Below, in pieces: positions 43,660 through 51,932 of a stretch of DNA of 64,000 nt. The notes beneath the pieces were generated by a model. The model saw only the letters and a program-made list of their open reading frames with translations, had not been told where the DNA came from and did no database searches. This DNA is from Pseudomonas putida (GTDB lineage: Bacteria > Pseudomonadota > Gammaproteobacteria > Pseudomonadales > Pseudomonadaceae), in contig NZ_CP109603.1 in assembly GCF_025905425.1 (NCBI RefSeq), positions 5,410,501-5,474,500 on the forward strand, read 5' to 3'. The translations under genes and the position numbers were made by a program. Every line of letters starts with the position of its first letter. The stretch's first letter is position 1.

Positions 43660-45087
43660 TTACTTGTGCAACCAACTGAGGAAGCCGCCTTTCTTGATCA
43701 GGGTCGGCTTCTGCAGCAACAACGATTCCCGGCTCTGCCGCCGGAACCGCTGCAACTTGCTCAACGCCGTCTGCACCTCGCCGCGCTGCACCAGGCAGCT
43801 TTTCACCTGTTCCTTGTCGATGCGGTATAGCACGCAACTGGTCAGCGTGCGGAACTCGGCAAAAGCATCGTCCTCGTCAATGATGCCCTCGATCCCCAGC
43901 ACCTCCCCTGGCCCCATGCGCCCGGCCTCCAGCAGCTTGTCGCCATCGCGAACTGACGCCGAAACCACCCCGCTGCCAATCACCAGCAAGTGATCCGAAC
44001 GCTCGCCCACCCCCAGGATCACCTGGTCGGCCAGGTATTCCACGGCCGTCATGCGCTGGCTTAGCGCATCGCGCTCTTCATCGCTCAGCGAGCGGAACAC
44101 CCGCACTTCGTCCAACACTTCGCGCTGGCGGCTGCGCGGTGGCATGGCCAGGTCGACGTTCCACATCACGCCACTGGCCTCAAGGTGCCGATGGGCCAGG
44201 TCGAACAGCTGATTGCGTGCGTCGCCCTTGCCGCCCATGTCGGCAACGAAGCCGCTGGCCTCGTATTCCACCGACTCCAGGGTCGAGGCCTTCACTGTGA
44301 CTTTCGGTTTGGGCGAGGCGAGTATCGCGCGCGTGCCCTGCAGGGCCTTTTCCAGTGCATCGAACACCCGCTTGGGGCGCACTTTGGCCGGCACCACCAC
44401 GCTGATCGACACCCCATGCACGTCAGGCGGGCGGCTGTGGTTAAGCAGCTTGGCCTTGGCCGCCACCGAGTTGGGGATTACCGCCAGGCTGCCTGCGCTG
44501 GTCAGCAGGCGGGTGGCGCGCCAGTCGATGTCCAGCACCTTGCCTTCCGTGCCATCGATGGAGATCGCATCACCGATCTGATAAGGCCGCGTCGTGTTCA
44601 GCACGATGCCGCTGAACACGTCGGCCAAGGTGCTTTGCAATGCCAGGCCGATGACGATAGCCATGACCCCGGAGGTGGCCAGCAGCCCCTTCACCGGCAG
44701 TTGCATTACGTAGCCCGCAGCGGCCACCACAGCCGCCAGGAAAATCAGCGCCCCCAGCACATCCTGCAGTAACCGGCCGCCGTGGCTGCCGCGGGCCACC
44801 AGCAGTTGCCCGAACACCACGGTCACCGTGCGCGCACCGAACAGCCACCAGCCAATCGTCAGCACTGTTGCCATCAGGTTGCGCGACACGTCGTCGGGCC
44901 ACGGCGGCGGTTGCAGCGGGCTCATGCCGGCGGCCAGCAGCACCCAGCTGAACAGCAGGAAGATCGTCAGCCGCGCGCCGATACGCCAGGCCCGGCGCTG
45001 AATGGGGATAAGTTGCCAGAGAACCAGGTCGAGCAGGATCAGTGAAGTGCCGAGCAACAACGGGGACGACTGGATGAAGGCCAGCAT
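43660..45087 (-). CDS. MscS-type mechanosensitive channel with C-terminal cyclic-nucleotide-binding domain
   Basis: A 475-residue membrane protein. Four hydrophobic segments (about 5-25, 38-55, 70-95, 105-130) precede the MscS pore helix (GVMAIVIGLALQSTLADVFS, about 140-159) and the beta domain (YQIGDAISIDGTEGKVLDI). The C-terminal 130 residues form a cyclic-nucleotide-binding/CAP effector fold (FRSLSDEERDAL, LLEAGRMGPGEVLGIEG-like, FRTLTSCVLYRIDKEQV). This layout suggests a channel gated or tuned by cNMP as well as membrane tension. It is divergent from the first ycaC gene. Confidence 0.88.
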   Translation of the reverse strand: MLAFIQSSPLLLGTSLILLDLVLWQLIPIQRRAWRIGARLTIFLLFSWVLLAAGMSPLQPPPWPDDVSRNLMATVLTIGWWLFGARTVTVVFGQLLVARGSHGGRLLQDVLGALIFLAAVVAAAGYVMQLPVKGLLATSGVMAIVIGLALQSTLADVFSGIVLNTTRPYQIGDAISIDGTEGKVLDIDWRATRLLTSAGSLAVIPNSVAAKAKLLNHSRPPDVHGVSISVVVPAKVRPKRVFDALEKALQGTRAILASPKPKVTVKASTLESVEYEASGFVADMGGKGDARNQLFDLAHRHLEASGVMWNVDLAMPPRSRQREVLDEVRVFRSLSDEERDALSQRMTAVEYLADQVILGVGERSDHLLVIGSGVVSASVRDGDKLLEAGRMGPGEVLGIEGIIDEDDAFAEFRTLTSCVLYRIDKEQVKSCLVQRGEVQTALSKLQRFRRQSRESLLLQKPTLIKKGGFLSWLHK

Positions 45088-45230
45088 GGTGGTCTCGGGG
45101 TGGGGGAGGGCTTCGGGTAGTAATAGAGCAGGTTGCTCAGGCAGGCAATGGGGCTAGCAAATCGTTTGCCACTCCATCGTTCACAAAACAGAACGGTAAA
45201 GCCAAAAACCGCTATCTACCGCTCCAAAGG

Positions 45231-45255
45231 TGATGGTTTTAATCTTCTCCCATCA
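45231..45255. promoter_or_regulatory. 25-bp inverted repeat upstream of the first ycaC gene
   Basis: TGATGG-N13-CCATCA, perfect 6-bp arms, 51 bp upstream of the gene. The neighbourhood (AAAGGTGATG, TTTTAATCT, CATCAACGCGAAACACCCCA) is shared with the second ycaC gene, where the arms read TGATGA / TCATCA. Confidence 0.6.
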
Positions 45256-45306
45256 ACGCGAAACACCCCACTGACTGAACATCAAAACCCTTTAGGAGCA
45301 ACGACC

Positions 45307-45936
45307 ATGGCCCCATTCAAATACAACCGCCTGAACAAAGACGACGCTGCCGTGCTGCTGGTCGACCACCAGGCTGGCCTGCTGTCGCTGGTACGCGATA
45401 TCGAGCCGGACGCCTTCAAGAACAACGTGCTGGCCCTGGCCGACCTGGCCAAGTTCTTCAACCTGCCGACCATCCTCACCACCAGCTTCGAGCAAGGCCC
45501 CAACGGCCCGCTGGTGCCGGAATTGAAAGCCCTGTTCCCAGATGCCCCGTACATCGCCCGCCCAGGCCAGATCAACGCCTGGGACAACGAAGATTTCGTG
45601 AAGGCCGTGAAGGCCACTGGCAAGAAACAGCTGATCATCGCTGGTGTGGTCACCGAGGTCTGCGTTGCCTTCCCGGCGCTGGCGGCCCTGGAAGAAGAAT
45701 TCGAGGTGTTCGTGGTGACCGACGCTTCTGGCACCTTCAACGCGATGACCCGCGACGCTGCCCATGACCGCATGAGCCGTGCCGGTGCGCAGCTGATGAC
45801 CTGGTTCGGCGTGGCCTGTGAGCTGCACCGCGACTGGCGCAACGACATCGAAGGCCTGGCGGCGCTGTGCTCCAACCACATCCCGGACTACCGCAACCTG
45901 ATGACCAGCTACAACGCGTTCAACGCCGGCAAGTAA
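45307..45936 (+). CDS. ycaC: YcaC-type isochorismatase-family hydrolase, copy 1
   Basis: A 209-residue cysteine-hydrolase-fold protein of the YcaC group. DAAVLLVDHQAGLLSLVRDI (about 12-31) holds the catalytic Asp, Lys lies in the NAWDNEDFVKAVKATGKKQL region (about 94-115), and the nucleophile in IAGVVTEVCVAFPALAALEE is Cys about 118. YcaC proteins form octamers and their substrate is not established. The start at 45307 lies seven bases after AGGAGC. A second gene at 51117 encodes an almost identical protein, and even the upstream region is shared, so the two arose by duplication. Confidence 0.9.
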   Translation: MAPFKYNRLNKDDAAVLLVDHQAGLLSLVRDIEPDAFKNNVLALADLAKFFNLPTILTTSFEQGPNGPLVPELKALFPDAPYIARPGQINAWDNEDFVKAVKATGKKQLIIAGVVTEVCVAFPALAALEEEFEVFVVTDASGTFNAMTRDAAHDRMSRAGAQLMTWFGVACELHRDWRNDIEGLAALCSNHIPDYRNLMTSYNAFNAGK

Positions 45937-46053
45937 CCCGCCGCGCACCGGGCACCGGCAGTCGGTGCCCGGTTAGGGCAGCACACTCATTCAATCTTCC
46001 GCCCGTTCGCCGTTGCACAGTGGATGCGGGCCAGCTCATCCCAAGGAACGCCG

Positions 46054-46620
46054 ATGAACACCGCATCCCAAGACAACCGCAACGTGGTCACCCTGGTCAT
46101 CCAGCACAAGGTTCGCGCCGAGTCGCTGGCAGGCTACGAAGCGTGGCTCAAGCACACAGTCAGCGCCGCGCGCCGTCAACCCGGCCACCTCGACGTCAAC
46201 GTGATCCGCCCGGAAGACGGCGGCCGCCACTTCACCACCGTGGTGCGTTTCAGCGACGCCGGCCTGCTGCAGGCCTGGGTCAACTCCACCGAGCGCCAGA
46301 CGCTGGTCAGCCAGGTGCTGCCACTGCTGGAGGAGGGTGACAACACCCAGGTGCACGACGACCCGGAATTCTGGTTCACCCCGCCGAGCACCACCGCGGC
46401 ACCACCGCCGCGCTGGAAGCAGGCATTGCTGACTTACCTGGTGATCTGCCCGATGACTCTGGTCATCCCGCAATTGCTGGCACCGTTGTTCGCGCGTTTC
46501 CCGCAGTTGGGCGGGGCGATCACCGGCAACCTGATCGGCAACCTGTTTGTCATCCTGCCCGTGGTGTTCTACATCATGCCGTGGGTAACCCGCCGCTGTG
46601 CCAACTGGCTGCGTGGCTGA
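46054..46620 (+). CDS. Antibiotic-biosynthesis-monooxygenase-domain protein with C-terminal membrane anchor
   Basis: A 188-residue protein of two parts. Residues about 10-105 form an ABM ferredoxin-like domain (VTLVIQHKVRAESLAGYEAW, then HLDVNVIRPEDGGRHFTTVV). Residues about 118-180 contain two hydrophobic helices (ALLTYLVICPMTLVIPQLLA, then LFVILPVVFYIMPWV). A cytoplasmic ABM domain attached to the membrane is the likely arrangement. Small ABM proteins act on quinones, haem or polyketides, but no substrate can be named. It follows the first ycaC gene and precedes an alpha/beta hydrolase in a co-directional cluster. The start at 46054 follows AAGGAA. Confidence 0.82.
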   Translation: MNTASQDNRNVVTLVIQHKVRAESLAGYEAWLKHTVSAARRQPGHLDVNVIRPEDGGRHFTTVVRFSDAGLLQAWVNSTERQTLVSQVLPLLEEGDNTQVHDDPEFWFTPPSTTAAPPPRWKQALLTYLVICPMTLVIPQLLAPLFARFPQLGGAITGNLIGNLFVILPVVFYIMPWVTRRCANWLRG

Positions 46621-46659
46621 TCCAGCCTCTTCCCCATAGACTTTCAAGGAGATACCGAC

Positions 46660-47478
46660 ATGAGCACTTTCGTAACCCGCGACGGCACTTCGATCTATTT
46701 CAAGGACTGGGGCAGCGGCAAGCCCGTGCTGTTCAGCCACGGTTGGCCGCTGGATGCCGACATGTGGGATGCGCAGATGGAGTTTCTGGCCAGTCGTGGC
46801 TACCGCGCCATCGCCTTCGACCGCCGTGGCTTCGGCCGGTCGAGCCAGCCGTGGAGCGGTTATGACTACGACACCTTTGCCGATGATATCGCCCAGTTGA
46901 TCGAGCATCTCGATCTGCGTGAGGTGACCTTGGTGGGCTTCTCCATGGGCGGCGGCGATGTCAGCCGTTATATCGCGCGCCATGGTAACGAGCGGGTCGC
47001 CGGGCTTGTGTTGTTGGGTGCGGTGACGCCGGTGTTCGGCAAGCGGGATGACAACCCCGAGGGGGTCGATGCAGCTGTGTTCGAGGGTATTCAGGCGGGC
47101 CTGCGTGCCGACCGGGCGCAGTTCATCGCCGATTTCGCCACGCCGTTCTATGGGTTGAACCAAGGGCAGCAGGTGTCCCAGGGGGTGCAGACGCAGACCC
47201 TGAACATCGCGCTGCTGGCCTCGATCAAGGGCACGCTGGATTGCGTCACTGCGTTCTCCCAGACCGACTTCCGCCCGGACATGGCCAAGATCGAGGTGCC
47301 GACCTTGGTGATCCACGGTGACGCGGACCAGATCGTGCCGTTCGAGACCACGGGCAAGAAGGCCGCCGAGTTGATTCGTGGGGCCGAGCTGAAAGTGTAT
47401 GAAGGTGCGCCGCATGGGTTTGCTGTGACGCATGCGCAGCAGCTGAATGAAGACCTGTTGGCGTTCTTGGGCCGATGA
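46660..47478 (+). CDS. Alpha/beta hydrolase (non-haem chloroperoxidase/arylesterase type)
   Basis: A 272-residue alpha/beta hydrolase with all catalytic landmarks: oxyanion loop FSHGWPLDADMW (about 24-35), nucleophile elbow GFSMGGGDV (Ser95), acid in VIHGDADQIVP (Asp221) and base in APHGFAVTH (His252). It begins MSTFVTRDGTSIYFKDWGSG, as in the cofactor-free haloperoxidase/esterase group. It is probably an esterase or lactonase. It lies 39 bp after the ABM gene and 146 bp before the amidohydrolase gene, all on the plus strand. Confidence 0.9.
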   Translation: MSTFVTRDGTSIYFKDWGSGKPVLFSHGWPLDADMWDAQMEFLASRGYRAIAFDRRGFGRSSQPWSGYDYDTFADDIAQLIEHLDLREVTLVGFSMGGGDVSRYIARHGNERVAGLVLLGAVTPVFGKRDDNPEGVDAAVFEGIQAGLRADRAQFIADFATPFYGLNQGQQVSQGVQTQTLNIALLASIKGTLDCVTAFSQTDFRPDMAKIEVPTLVIHGDADQIVPFETTGKKAAELIRGAELKVYEGAPHGFAVTHAQQLNEDLLAFLGR

Positions 47479-47624
47479 AAAGCGGGGGTCGGCCGAGGCT
47501 GCACAAAAGCTGATCAAGGCTAACCTTCACCCACCCACCGCACATCCATCCAATCCTCAGCCCTGCACGAACCGGCATGCTCCGCAGTTGCGCCTGCCGC
47601 TGCCGCACCCAGACGGAGAAGACC

Positions 47625-49607
47625 ATGTCCCAGGACCCCAACGACAAGAGCCGTCGCCAGTTCCTCGCCACCAGCACCGTGCTCGGTGCCGCCGGCGCGC
47701 TCTGGTCCGCATTGCCCTTCGCCGGCACCGCCGGTTCCGCCCATGCATCCACCCAAGGAGGCCCCATGACCGCCGACCTCATTCTGTTCAACGGCAAACT
47801 GCACACCGTCGACCGTGAGAAGCCCACGGCCACCGCCGTCGCCATCAAGGACGGCCGCTTCATAGCCGTTGGCAGCGACGCCGAAGCCATGGCCCACAAA
47901 AGCGCCGCCACGCAGATCATTGACCTCAAGCAGCGCACCGTCATCCCAGGCCTGAACGACTCCCACCTGCATCTGATCCGCGGTGGCCTGAACTACAACC
48001 TGGAGCTGCGCTGGGAAGGCGTGCCGTCGGTGGCCGATGCCCTGCGCATGCTCAAGGACCAGGCCGCCCGTACCCCAACCCCGCAGTGGGTGCGTGTGGT
48101 CGGTGGCTGGAACGAATTCCAGTTCGCTGAAAAGCGCATGCCGACCCTGGAGGAAATCAACCAGGCCGCGCCTGATACCCCGGTGTTCCTGCTGCACCTG
48201 TACGACCGCGCGTTGCTCAACCGCGCCGCGCTCAAAGCTGTCGGTTACACCAAGGACACGCCGAACCCGCCCGGGGGCGAGATCCAGCGCAACAAGTTCG
48301 GCGAGCCGACCGGTATGCTTATCGCCCGCCCTAACGCGATGATCCTTTACGCCACCCTGGCCAAAGGGCCGAAGCTGCCGCTGGAATACCAGGTCAACTC
48401 GACCCGCCAGTTCATGCGCGAGCTCAACCGCCTGGGCCTGACCAGCGCTATCGATGCCGGCGGTGGCTACCAGAACTTCCCCGACGATTACTCGGTGATC
48501 CAGGAGCTGGCAGACAACAACCAGCTGACCGTGCGCATCGCCTACAACCTGTTCACTCAGAAGCCCAAGGAAGAGCTGGACGACTTCAAGAAGTGGACCT
48601 CCAGCGTCAAGCTGCACAGCGGCACCGATTTCCTGCGCCATAACGGCGCTGGCGAGATGCTGGTGTTCTCCGCTGCCGACTTCGAGGACTTCCTGGAGCC
48701 GCGCCCGGACCTGCCGCAAACCATGGAAGAAGAGCTGGAGCCGGTGGTGCGCCACCTCGTCGAGCAGCGCTGGCCGTTCCGCTTGCACGCCACCTATAAC
48801 GAATCCATCACGCGCATGCTCGATGTGTTCGAGAAGGTCAATCGCGACATCCCGTTCAATGGCCTGCCGTGGTTTTTCGACCACGCCGAAACCATCACCC
48901 CGCAAAACATCGAGCGCGTGCGTGCCCTGGGCGGCGGTATCGCGATCCAGGACCGCATGGCCTTCCAGGGTGAATACTTCGTCGATCGCTACGGCGCCAA
49001 GGCGGCCGAACAGACCCCGCCGATCAAGCGCATGCTCGACATGGGTGTGCCTGTCGGGGCCGGTACCGACGCGACCCGCGTCTCTAGCTACAACCCGTGG
49101 ACTTCGCTGTATTGGCTGGTCAGCGGCAAGACCGTCGGGGGGATGGAACTGTACCCCGAGGGCCTGAGCCGCGACACCGCGCTGCAGTTGTTCACCCAAG
49201 GCAGCGCCTGGTTCTCTAGCGAGCAGGGCAAGAAGGGCCAGATCAAGGTTGGCCAGTTGGCGGACCTGGCGGCGTTGTCGCTGGACTTCTTCAGTGTCGA
49301 TGAAGACGCGATCAAGGGCATCGAGTCGGTGCTGACCGTTGTCGACGGCAAGGTCGTGTATGCCGCCGGCGAGTTCGACAAACTCGGCCCGCCTCAGGTG
49401 CCGGTCCTGCCGGAGTGGTCGCCAGTGGCCAAGGTGCCTGGGCACTGGCGTGTGGGTACGCCATCGCTGGCTGCAGCGGTGCACCAGTGCAGCGGGCCGT
49501 GTGGAGTGCATGCGCACAGCCATGAGAAGGCGCGGCATTCCAGCGTGCCCGTGAACGACTTCCAAGGGTTCTGGGGGGCGTTGGGTTGCTCGTGCTTTGC
49601 GTTTTAA
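47625..49607 (+). CDS. Tat-exported amidohydrolase (YtcJ-like, amidohydrolase_3)
   Basis: A 660-residue metal hydrolase with a twin-arginine signal (KSRRQFLATSTVLGAAGALW, residues about 8-27; cleavage about SAHA), so it acts in the periplasm. The catalytic part starts MTADLILFNGKLHTVD (about 48), with the metal-binding NDSHLHLIRGG near residue 112 and later FDHAETITPQNI and GAGTDATRVSSYNPW (about 470). YtcJ-type enzymes hydrolyse amides or esters of unknown physiological substrates. The start at 47625 follows GGAGAA; an internal ATG at 47766 would remove the signal. It ends the co-directional cluster begun by the first ycaC gene; a terminator follows. Confidence 0.87.
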   Translation: MSQDPNDKSRRQFLATSTVLGAAGALWSALPFAGTAGSAHASTQGGPMTADLILFNGKLHTVDREKPTATAVAIKDGRFIAVGSDAEAMAHKSAATQIIDLKQRTVIPGLNDSHLHLIRGGLNYNLELRWEGVPSVADALRMLKDQAARTPTPQWVRVVGGWNEFQFAEKRMPTLEEINQAAPDTPVFLLHLYDRALLNRAALKAVGYTKDTPNPPGGEIQRNKFGEPTGMLIARPNAMILYATLAKGPKLPLEYQVNSTRQFMRELNRLGLTSAIDAGGGYQNFPDDYSVIQELADNNQLTVRIAYNLFTQKPKEELDDFKKWTSSVKLHSGTDFLRHNGAGEMLVFSAADFEDFLEPRPDLPQTMEEELEPVVRHLVEQRWPFRLHATYNESITRMLDVFEKVNRDIPFNGLPWFFDHAETITPQNIERVRALGGGIAIQDRMAFQGEYFVDRYGAKAAEQTPPIKRMLDMGVPVGAGTDATRVSSYNPWTSLYWLVSGKTVGGMELYPEGLSRDTALQLFTQGSAWFSSEQGKKGQIKVGQLADLAALSLDFFSVDEDAIKGIESVLTVVDGKVVYAAGEFDKLGPPQVPVLPEWSPVAKVPGHWRVGTPSLAAAVHQCSGPCGVHAHSHEKARHSSVPVNDFQGFWGALGCSCFAF

Positions 49608-49620
49608 GCTGATGTGAAGA

Positions 49621-49649
49621 AAGGGGCCTGCAGCGGCCCCTTTTTTTGC
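49621..49649 (+). terminator. Intrinsic terminator after the amidohydrolase gene
   Basis: AAGGGGCC / GGCCCCTT stem with loop TGCAGC, then seven T, 13 bp after the stop codon. Confidence 0.9.
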
Positions 49650-49692
49650 GCCGCCAGCACGGTATTTGAGCGCAGCGGGTTATCCGCCTATT

Positions 49693-49821
49693 TCAAAAAC
49701 TGCCGTTGAGTGGGTATTCGGCGAGCAGCGACCAGCCGGGCTCTTCTGCCTGGCTGAGTGCAGGGCAGAGAGCGAGGCTGGCGAGCAGGGCGCGGCCTGG
49801 TCCGTGAGTGGCGCGGATCAT
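49693..49821 (-). CDS. Possible small secreted peptide or truncated gene start
   Basis: A 42-codon frame, MIRATHGPGRALLASLALCP then ALSQAEEPGWSLLAEYPLNG, ending SF. It reads like a signal peptide with cleavage after SQA followed by a 17-residue mature piece. GGAG lies five bases before the ATG. It could be a genuine small secreted protein or the stump of a larger exported protein whose rest was lost. It occupies part of the 460-bp gap between the amidohydrolase and LysR genes; the rest holds a terminator and REP sequence. Confidence 0.35.
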   Translation of the reverse strand: MIRATHGPGRALLASLALCPALSQAEEPGWSLLAEYPLNGSF

Positions 49822-49898
49822 GGGGGCTCCGGGGTGGATGATCCGGGGGATAGGGCAGGGTCTTGTAAGGGTGTGCTGGGTGGAGGTATTGCTGTGCC

Positions 49899-50053
49899 TG
49901 TGCTGGCCCTTTCGCGGGGCAAGCCCGCTCCCACAGATTCACTGATGTATTTAAATTGAGCCCAGTGGACTGCCCCCAAGGGTTGGATTGGTGTCCAACT
50001 TCTTGGGGGCAGTCCACAGTGTGGGAGCAGGCTTGCCCCGCGAAAGGGCCCGT
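49899..50053. repeat. REP inverted pair interrupted by an IS remnant
   Basis: Left unit CTTTCGCGGGGCAAGCCCGC and right unit GCAGGCTTGCCCCGCGAAAG face each other. The usual 35-45 bp centre is enlarged by a 51-bp element with a CAG duplication, placed directly before the right unit. Confidence 0.88.
49966..50016. mobile_element. 51-bp internally deleted IS3-type remnant with 3-bp target duplication
   Basis: The ends are inverted repeats: left TGGACTGCCCCCAAGGGTTG and, read from the right, TGGACTGCCCCCAAGAAGTT, 15 bp identical. They begin TG and end CA like IS3-family termini. CAG precedes (49963-49965) and follows (50017-50019). No transposase remains; the two ends nearly meet. Confidence 0.7.
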
Positions 50054-50069
50054 ACTAACAGCAACTGAT

Positions 50070-50981
50070 TCAGGCCATGTCGCTGATAGCGAACGCCTCG
50101 GCCAGGTGATCGATCAGCGACCGCACCGACGGCAACAACCCGCGTCGTGACGGGAAGATGGCATGGACGATGCCGCAACGCGGGTGCCACTCCGGTAGCA
50201 GCTCCACCAACCTACCCTCGGCTAAATCCTCGCGCACCGCGACCCGTGGTAAATGCGCGATGCCCACCCCAGCCACCACGAAATGCCGCAGGGCAAACAG
50301 GTCATCGGTGACCATGCGTGGCTTGTGCGGAATCACGATGCTACGGCTCATGTCCTCGCCTTGGAACAGCTCCCACTGGTACTCACGCTGGGCACTGCCC
50401 CAGTGCACGCTGGGCAGCGTACCGAGCAGCTGCGGGTCGAAGCCTTTGGGCAGTTGTTGCAGATACTGCGGATGCCCCACCAGGCACTGGGTGCTGTTGC
50501 TCAGCACTTTCATCACCATGTCGGTGTTTTCCAGTGGCGGAAAGCGTACGCGCAGCGCCAAGTCGAAGCCCTCATGCAGCAGATCGACGCGGCGGTTGGT
50601 GCTTTCGATGAACAGCTCCACCTGCGGGTACTTGAGCATGTAGCGGGTCAGCATCGGCCCGACCCAGGCGTTGAGCAGGGTGGTCGGGCAACTGATGCGC
50701 ACCAGGCCGCGAGGCTCGCTGCGGTTGCGTTCGATGATCTCCGCCGCGCCCTCGGCCTCTACGCGCATGGCCAGGCAACGGTTGTAGTAGGCCTGGCCGA
50801 TTTCGGTCAGCGAGCAGTGCCGGCTGGTGCGGTGCAGCAGGCGCACGCCCAGGCGGTCCTCAAGGTCGGCGACGCGCCGGCTGAGCTTCGACTTGGGCAT
50901 GTCCAGCGCCCGCCCGGCCGGGGCGAAGCCACCGTGCTCCACGACTTGGGTGAAGTAGTAGAGGGAGTTGAGGTCTTCCAA
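50070..50981 (-). CDS. LysR-family regulator divergent from the second ycaC gene
   Basis: A 303-residue LysR protein: helix-turn-helix HGGFAPAGRALDMPKSKLSR (about 16-35), PKSKLSRRVADLE as recognition helix, and an effector domain from about residue 90 (RISCPTTLLNAWVGPML). It belongs to the DsdC/AaeR-like branch that often controls hydrolase or aromatic-acid genes. It is divergent from the second ycaC gene across 135 bp that carry a 25-bp inverted repeat also found before the first ycaC gene, so it is the prime candidate to regulate both. Confidence 0.88.
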   Translation of the reverse strand: MEDLNSLYYFTQVVEHGGFAPAGRALDMPKSKLSRRVADLEDRLGVRLLHRTSRHCSLTEIGQAYYNRCLAMRVEAEGAAEIIERNRSEPRGLVRISCPTTLLNAWVGPMLTRYMLKYPQVELFIESTNRRVDLLHEGFDLALRVRFPPLENTDMVMKVLSNSTQCLVGHPQYLQQLPKGFDPQLLGTLPSVHWGSAQREYQWELFQGEDMSRSIVIPHKPRMVTDDLFALRHFVVAGVGIAHLPRVAVREDLAEGRLVELLPEWHPRCGIVHAIFPSRRGLLPSVRSLIDHLAEAFAISDMA

Positions 50982-51038
50982 TGATCGTTCTCCAGGTGGA
51001 ACGCTAAGGGCAGTTTTCGCAGTCTACCGCAGCAAAGG

Positions 51039-51063
51039 TGATGATTTTAATCTGTGCTCATCA
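51039..51063. promoter_or_regulatory. 25-bp inverted repeat between LysR and the second ycaC gene
   Basis: TGATGA-N13-TCATCA, perfect 6-bp arms, 57 bp from the LysR start and 53 bp from ycaC. Compared with the first copy, both arms changed at the paired position (G to A, C to T), keeping the symmetry. Confidence 0.62.
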
Positions 51064-51116
51064 ACGCGAAACACCCCAAATTGCTGAAAAATTCATAAAC
51101 CTTAGGAGCACAGACC

Positions 51117-51746
51117 ATGAGCAAATTCACCTACAACCGCCTGAACAAAGACGATGCCGCTGTGCTGCTGGTTGACCACCAGGCTGGCTTGCTGTCCCTG
51201 GTGCGCGACATCGAACCGGATAAGTTCAAGAACAACGTGCTGGCCCTGGCTGACCTTGCCAAGTTCTTCAACTTGCCGACGATCCTTACCACCAGCTTCG
51301 AGCAAGGCCCCAACGGTCCGTTGGTACCCGAGTTGAAAGCGCTGTTCCCGGACGCGCCCTACATCGCCCGCCCAGGCCAGATCAACGCCTGGGACAACGA
51401 AGATTTCGTCAAGGCGGTGAAGGCGACTGGCAAGAAGCAGCTGATCATCGCTGGTGTGGTCACCGAGGTGTGCGTGGCGTTCCCGGCGCTGGCGGCCCTG
51501 GAAGAAGAGTTCGAGGTGTTCGTGGTGACCGATGCTTCCGGCACCTTCAACGCGATGACCCGCGATGCCGCTCATGACCGCATGAGCCAGGCCGGTGCGC
51601 AATTGATGACCTGGTTCGGCGTGGCCTGTGAGCTGCACCGCGACTGGCGCAACGATGTTGAAGGGCTGGCGGCGCTGTGCTCCAACCACATTCCGGATTA
51701 TCGGAACTTGATGACCAGCTATAACGCGCTGACTGCTGGTAAGTAA
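51117..51746 (+). CDS. ycaC: YcaC-type isochorismatase-family hydrolase, copy 2
   Basis: A 209-residue protein nearly identical to the one at 45307. The N-terminus differs (MSKFTYNRLNKD instead of MAPFKYNRLNKD), as do a few other places: DKFKNN for DAFKNN, MSQAGAQ for MSRAGAQ, DVEGL for DIEGL, SYNALTAGK for SYNAFNAGK. All catalytic regions are kept. Many synonymous third-position changes separate the genes, so the duplication is not recent or has been under selection at the protein level. It is transcribed away from the LysR gene at 50070. Confidence 0.9.
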   Translation: MSKFTYNRLNKDDAAVLLVDHQAGLLSLVRDIEPDKFKNNVLALADLAKFFNLPTILTTSFEQGPNGPLVPELKALFPDAPYIARPGQINAWDNEDFVKAVKATGKKQLIIAGVVTEVCVAFPALAALEEEFEVFVVTDASGTFNAMTRDAAHDRMSQAGAQLMTWFGVACELHRDWRNDVEGLAALCSNHIPDYRNLMTSYNALTAGK

Positions 51747-51932
51747 TGCCTTTGCATCGCACTGCATGAAATTCCACAACATCTTGCCGTTGTCTGCGAT
51801 CAGAGCCGCTGAAGCGGTAGCGACCAAGTGAGCCTATGGAGAAGGGTTTCTGCGGGCTATCAGACGAGGGGGGACCCTTTGTGTAGGGTGTTTCCTCAAT
51901 TGAGGTGGGCAGTCCTCGGCGTTTCGAGGCCC

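Follow-up and report, generated by a model that had tools for sequence, protein, structure and literature searches.

A predicted LysR-type operator, rather than a compensated inverted repeat, as the probable shared control site of two ycaC promoters in Pseudomonas putida

In the available portions of the sources cited here, sites of the LysR family are described as carrying a T-N11-A sequence positioned near −65 (PMC8407307), and two Escherichia coli regulators of that family are the closest described counterparts of the locus analyzed below. Deletion of the LysR-type gene ycaN lowered expression of E. coli ycaC (PMC9068703). YhaJ is a LysR-type activator whose targets include yhaK and yhhW and whose inducers are quinol-like compounds (PMC5031710, PMC11739112). 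In Pseudomonas putida KT2440, the gene ycaC-I (PP_0711) is a listed Rsm-bound RNA (PMC7937890) and is negatively affected by ArgR and RoxR (PMC10963909); a match of PP_0711 to either of the two ycaC copies treated here is not implied.

The window, which is the whole 64,000-nucleotide stretch of P. putida contig NZ_CP109603.1 that was analyzed, contains two ycaC genes, and a gene for a LysR-type regulator is divergent from the second of them. The genes are given by window coordinates.

45307..45936, + strand: ycaC copy 1, isochorismatase-like cysteine hydrolase YcaC, 209 aa (NCBIfam NF041461, 400 bits, cut-off 310)
51117..51746, + strand: ycaC copy 2, YcaC, 209 aa (NCBIfam NF041461, 402 bits, cut-off 310)
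50070..50981, − strand: LysR-type regulator gene, divergent from ycaC copy 2 (Pfam HTH_1 plus LysR_substrate)

Both copies are full-length members of the YcaC hydrolases, for which solved structures exist, and the regulator carries an N-terminal HTH_1 domain and a C-terminal LysR_substrate domain, each scoring above its Pfam cut-off. The best NCBIfam model for the LysR protein was PRK14997, whose score of 343 bits falls short of the cut-off of 380. At the DNA level the two ycaC genes share 89% identity, differing at 67 of 630 positions, and their products are 8 residues apart. Upstream of the genes, a gap-free alignment extends over 106 bp and contains 33 mismatches. A third ycaC gene in the genome (4460572-4461183, minus strand, 86% identical) lacks the shared promoter described below, as both the operator and the −10 motif are absent, and thus not every ycaC gene would be under the LysR regulator. 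The gene order across 43660-49607 is an MscS-like channel with a cyclic-nucleotide-binding domain, ycaC, an ABM-domain protein, an alpha/beta hydrolase and a Tat-type amidohydrolase, followed by LysR.

An earlier note on this DNA had drawn attention to a 25-bp inverted repeat shared by the two ycaC promoters, and the repeats are found exactly as it gave them, in both sequence and coordinates.

45231..45255, no strand assigned: 25-bp repeat of copy 1, TGATGG-N13-CCATCA; present and judged coincidental, the arms being independent in relatives
51039..51063, no strand assigned: 25-bp repeat of copy 2, TGATGA-N13-TCATCA; present and judged coincidental, most copy-2-like promoters having an unpaired A-C

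Related promoters were collected by running the pattern TTTAATCT-N9-AACGCGAAAC, with at most one mismatch, on 398 genomes of the genus, 50 of which were matched. The pattern leaves the left arm of the 25-bp repeat free and fixes one base of its right arm. All matches were pooled with L001 to L018 (the 18 of 80 named loci found by protein at which the same pattern matched), and removal of identical contexts left 87 sites, from which L095, having no ycaC, was excluded to give 86 putida-type promoters. Two of the 86 (L166 and L167) lie at contig ends where the full ycaC is missing. The sequence CGTTC-N8-GAACG is absent from every pattern used to find these promoters, and yet all ten positions of its arms were identical in 86 of 86, around 40 different N8 spacers. 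Moreover, the distance from the start of CGTTC-N8-GAACG to TTTAATCT was a constant 60 nt in all 86 promoters. The constancy of TTTAATCT and AACGCGAAAC themselves is partly by construction, as both are in the search pattern. The predicted promoter elements of the two window copies are as follows.

45178..45195, no strand assigned: predicted LysR-type operator of ycaC copy 1, CGTTC-N8-GAACG with T-N11-A, arms invariant in 86/86 promoters; putative binding site
50986..51003, no strand assigned: predicted LysR-type operator of ycaC copy 2, CGTTC-N8-GAACG, separated by 4 nt from the start codon of LysR
45215..45222, + strand: conserved TCTACCGC of copy 1, from column-by-column conservation; likely activation site or −35 region
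51023..51030, + strand: conserved TCTACCGC of copy 2, from column-by-column conservation; likely activation site or −35 region
45238..45243, + strand: likely −10 of ycaC copy 1, TTTAAT, at the fixed 60-nt operator spacing; predicted start near 45250
51046..51051, + strand: likely −10 of ycaC copy 2, TTTAAT, at the fixed 60-nt operator spacing; predicted start near 51058
45251..45266, + strand: CATCAACGCGAAACAC block of copy 1 at the expected transcript 5′ end; includes most of the right arm of the repeat
51059..51074, + strand: CATCAACGCGAAACAC block of copy 2 at the expected transcript 5′ end

Each window copy of the operator is a dyad-symmetric box with perfect arms and two T-N11-A sequences. 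A distance of 51.5 nt separates the operator centre from the first T of the downstream TTTAAT, which would correspond to approximately −63 if transcription started 12 nt after that T. A consensus scan of both ycaC promoters detected no sigma-70-like pair, as expected of a promoter with a poor −35; an activator-dependent promoter could give this result, which nevertheless does not count as evidence of activation. Of 63 more distantly related ycaC loci (L019 to L080 and L083), 16 had CGTTC-N8-GAACG within 260 nt, 15 of which have TTTAATCT 60 nt on while one (L026) has TTTAAGCT, and a divergent LysR gene whose product is 77 to 81% identical was found at 10 of the 16. The bare pattern CGTTC-N8-GAACG showed no genomic enrichment (9 occurrences versus 26 for the reversed pattern), and the claim of an operator therefore rests on the whole operator-promoter unit.

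The operator-promoter unit, defined as CGTTC-N8-GAACG-N42-TTTAATCT with at most one mismatch, was detected in 152 of the 398 Pseudomonas genomes, with one match to the reversed control (G245) among the matches listed, and a LysR orthologue (E ≤ 1e-110) was detected in 175. Unit and orthologue occurred together in 142 genomes, with the unit alone in 10 and the orthologue alone in 33, an association (Fisher p 9e-62) that is uncorrected for shared ancestry and hence inflated by common descent. Two of the 10 genomes with the unit alone, G018 and G370, have flanking sequence that is unrelated and look like chance matches, and the stretch around the G018 match contained neither a ycaC nor a LysR gene. 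Among the loci returned (31 unit sites in 30 loci, with more matches listed), 17 sites preceded ycaC, 13 preceded a pirin gene and 1 (L203) preceded neither, and at 26 of the 31 a LysR gene lay on the opposite side at a distance of at most 200 nt. At many ycaC loci without the operator, another gene is located between LysR and ycaC; at L033, this intervening gene (1499-2362) is a pirin gene that is itself preceded by the operator-promoter unit and followed by ycaC. The unit was also observed before a pirin gene at L190, L201, L205 and other loci, as in many other Pseudomonas.

Six genomes with a single unit and a LysR gene set apart from it were chosen from a larger number of such genomes. The sole unit in each was at a ycaC gene beside the MscS gene, 4.3 to 7.0 kb from the LysR start, with LysR following ycaC beyond the amidohydrolase, and no second ycaC was present in the stretch fetched. 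Most of the neighbours seen across 43660-49607 of the window were also found in these six genomes, and one of the six (L219) also kept CGTTC-N8-GAACG before the start of LysR itself.

The invariant operator, its fixed spacing, the co-occurrence with LysR and the presence of the unit at ycaC genes distant from LysR together indicate that one LysR-type regulator probably serves both promoters. Shared control of the two ycaC promoters by one LysR regulator had been proposed in the earlier note, and that part of the proposal is upheld by the operator, the co-occurrence and the six genomes, but the control does not appear to run through the 25-bp repeat. The shared site that had been missed is probably the operator, 38 nt further upstream than the repeat. 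We conclude, with a probability that we place at roughly 0.8 on the basis of comparative sequence, that the product of the LysR-type gene at 50070-50981 controls both ycaC copies via CGTTC-N8-GAACG.

One way in which such control could operate is that a pair of LysR dimers docks on CGTTC-N8-GAACG, with its centre at about −63 relative to the predicted start, and that the resulting tetramer reaches to the conserved TCTACCGC or −35 region. The regulator, when bound by its inducer, would then bring RNA polymerase to the −10 element TTTAAT. The copy 2 operator is close to the start codon of LysR, and its spacer overlaps a sequence that probably serves the LysR gene as its Shine-Dalgarno, such that autoregulation of LysR through this operator is likely. 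Copy 1, 5.8 kb away, would be a duplicate of ycaC together with its promoter and would be served by the LysR regulator in trans.

Among the targets named for YhaJ, both yhaK and yhhW are pirin genes. The predicted regulator resembles YhaJ in the type of its targets, as many of the orthologous operators precede a pirin gene, but the motif proposed for YhaJ, TCA-N7-TGA, is unlike CGTTC-N8-GAACG (PMC5031710, PMC11739112, available portions). The likeness to E. coli YcaN and ycaC lies in a LysR-type gene near ycaC whose deletion lowers ycaC (PMC9068703, available portion). Compared with the LysR family as described in the available portion of PMC8407307, the locus is alike in the HTH_1 and LysR_substrate domains, in the T-N11-A dyad and in having a divergent target at copy 2, its operator would lie at a similar position (near −63) if transcription starts where predicted, and it differs in that copy 1, to which the regulator gene is not divergent, offers a second target promoter 5.8 kb off and in that some genomes have their sole unit non-adjacent to the regulator. 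Judged by these sequence features, the arrangement is an ordinary LysR-type one in which the predicted operator is newly defined. No account of CGTTC-N8-GAACG as an operator was found in the open-access papers searched on LysR sites, YhaJ, pirin and YcaC, and one may still be published. The conserved regulator predicted for ycaC (elsewhere for a pirin-ycaC operon) is present in well over one-third of the sampled Pseudomonas genomes, and the operator would provide a direct route to the inducer of the regulator and hence to the physiological signal of YcaC.

The 25-bp repeat spans both the likely −10 (TTTAAT) and the likely start of transcription. Within the 91-bp promoter block of each copy, it is the single repeat with 6-bp arms and a 3- to 20-nt spacer; at least one such repeat occurred in 13% of shuffled 91-bp blocks, and 28 repeats of the 6-N13-6 form are present in the 64-kb window. 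When the copy 1 repeat was taken as given and 23 random substitutions were simulated, 0.8% of the simulations ended with a repeat that was perfect and included one or more compensated pairs. A compensated repeat in two copies is slightly unusual, although it was chosen post hoc, and it fails once more promoters are compared.

The earlier note held that the repeat was kept by paired changes, either as the site of a dimeric regulator or as an RNA stem. A dimeric site, for example that of a repressor sitting over the −10, would fit with the repeat being perfect both in the two window copies and in 20 of the 86 promoters. Consistent with such a site, the alignment contained 13 doubly changed cells versus 6.4 in shuffles and gave a covariation score of 0.077 versus 0.054, a value reached in 0 of 500 shuffles; the excess is not decisive, as related sequences alone easily exceed shuffles of this kind. 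However, 66 of the 86 promoters break at least one pair, with five pairs remaining in 42, four in 12 and three in 12 (80.6% of cells paired across the alignment), and there are 20 variants of the left arm and 3 of the right. The key pair is G-C in 44 promoters, A-C in 28, A-T in 12 and G-T in 2, and the repeat was rejected as a compensated structure on account of these A-C cases and of the broken pairs. Moreover, when the partners were slid by −3, the doubly changed cells rose to 37 and the covariation score to 0.168, higher than in the real register. The paired and unpaired arm substitutions, which the earlier note had proposed to count, were followed on a tree of the ycaC genes from 82 of the 86 sites (midpoint rooting, simple parsimony; L108 and L118 were left out because the gene start was not found, and L166 and L167 because the contig piece carries no ycaC). 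Parsimony changes per column were 3, 16, 20, 9, 0 and 13 in the left arm and 0, 0, 1, 0, 0 and 10 in the right, such that left-arm columns 57, 58 and 59 changed 16, 20 and 9 times and their partners 0, 1 and 0 times. The arms therefore vary independently, an outcome that the earlier note had named as refuting its reading, with the left changing far more often than the right at three of the six pairs. The key pair changed 13 times on the left and 10 on the right, and there were two branches on which both sides changed. A tree with the promoter added and the arms removed gave 6 plus 7 changes at the key pair and a single branch on which A-T became G-C, which is the only result favouring coupled change and appears in one of the two trees. 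Outside the putida type, six pairs in this register were present in 1 of 53 promoters, some species possibly being counted twice. We consider a dimeric site at the repeat highly improbable, and the most fitting account of the copy 2 repeat of the window is an A-C promoter in which a chance C-to-T change, also seen in L164, created a pair.

The same broken pairs bear on the RNA stem, for which the observation in favour is that the isolated 25 nt fold into a stem at −4.7 and −3.1 kcal/mol in the two copies. The z-scores of these folds were just −2.0 and −1.3, the copy 2 stem was not the best fold in longer context, no Rfam match was found within 45000-51900, and the left arm would precede the predicted transcription start, all of which leaves a stem barely plausible. 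The 25-bp repeat is, from the comparison of promoters, a chance symmetry, its left arm falling in a variable spacer and its right arm in a conserved block where the transcript is expected to begin. A tempting covariation argument drawn from two sequences is thereby corrected, and a testable predicted operator is put in its place. The predicted operator could in turn be the site of another regulator, with LysR merely a conserved neighbour, as no more than 24 of the 86 promoters have the LysR start 150 nt or less from the site and sites are kept without an adjacent LysR. Nevertheless, of the 50 genomes matched by the putida-type pattern, 49 contain LysR and the remaining one (G256) has its match at a place without ycaC, and the position, the T-N11-A sequence and the overlap with the LysR start all suit a LysR-type operator. 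Another regulator at CGTTC-N8-GAACG is in our estimation quite unlikely, and control by the LysR-type regulator is the reading that we prefer.

Within the genome, CATCAACGCGAAACAC has exact copies at the two ycaC genes of the window and nowhere else, and other Pseudomonas types have a different sequence in its place. Just past the copy 2 −10, TCTGTGCTC (51051-51059) is complementary over 9 nt to GAGCACAGA (51107-51115) in the Shine-Dalgarno region. Related promoters keep 7 to 9 nt of this complementarity, one of them with TTTGC/GCAAA replacing TGTGC/GCACA. The longest helix between TCTGTGCYC and the Shine-Dalgarno region had a mean length of 4.95 versus 4.18 in shuffled controls, with 0 of 2000 as high and kinship uncorrected. 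The TCTGTGCYC segment surrounds the expected start of transcription and may lie upstream of it, in which case it would not be transcribed. CATCAACGCGAAACAC might be a second control element besides the operator, located at the expected transcript 5′ end and in some copies joined by the Shine-Dalgarno-complementary segment, such that both paralogues would be under one trans regulator plus 5′-end control; we regard this addition as rather unlikely.

Two further loci carry related sequences. At L203 (G278), a LysR gene whose product is 95% identical is accompanied by the operator and a degraded −10, TTTAGTCT, with no adjacent ycaC or pirin gene, and this operator is apparently what remains of a lost target. 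At the Yersinia locus L070, the corresponding sequence is TGTTC-N8-GAACA.
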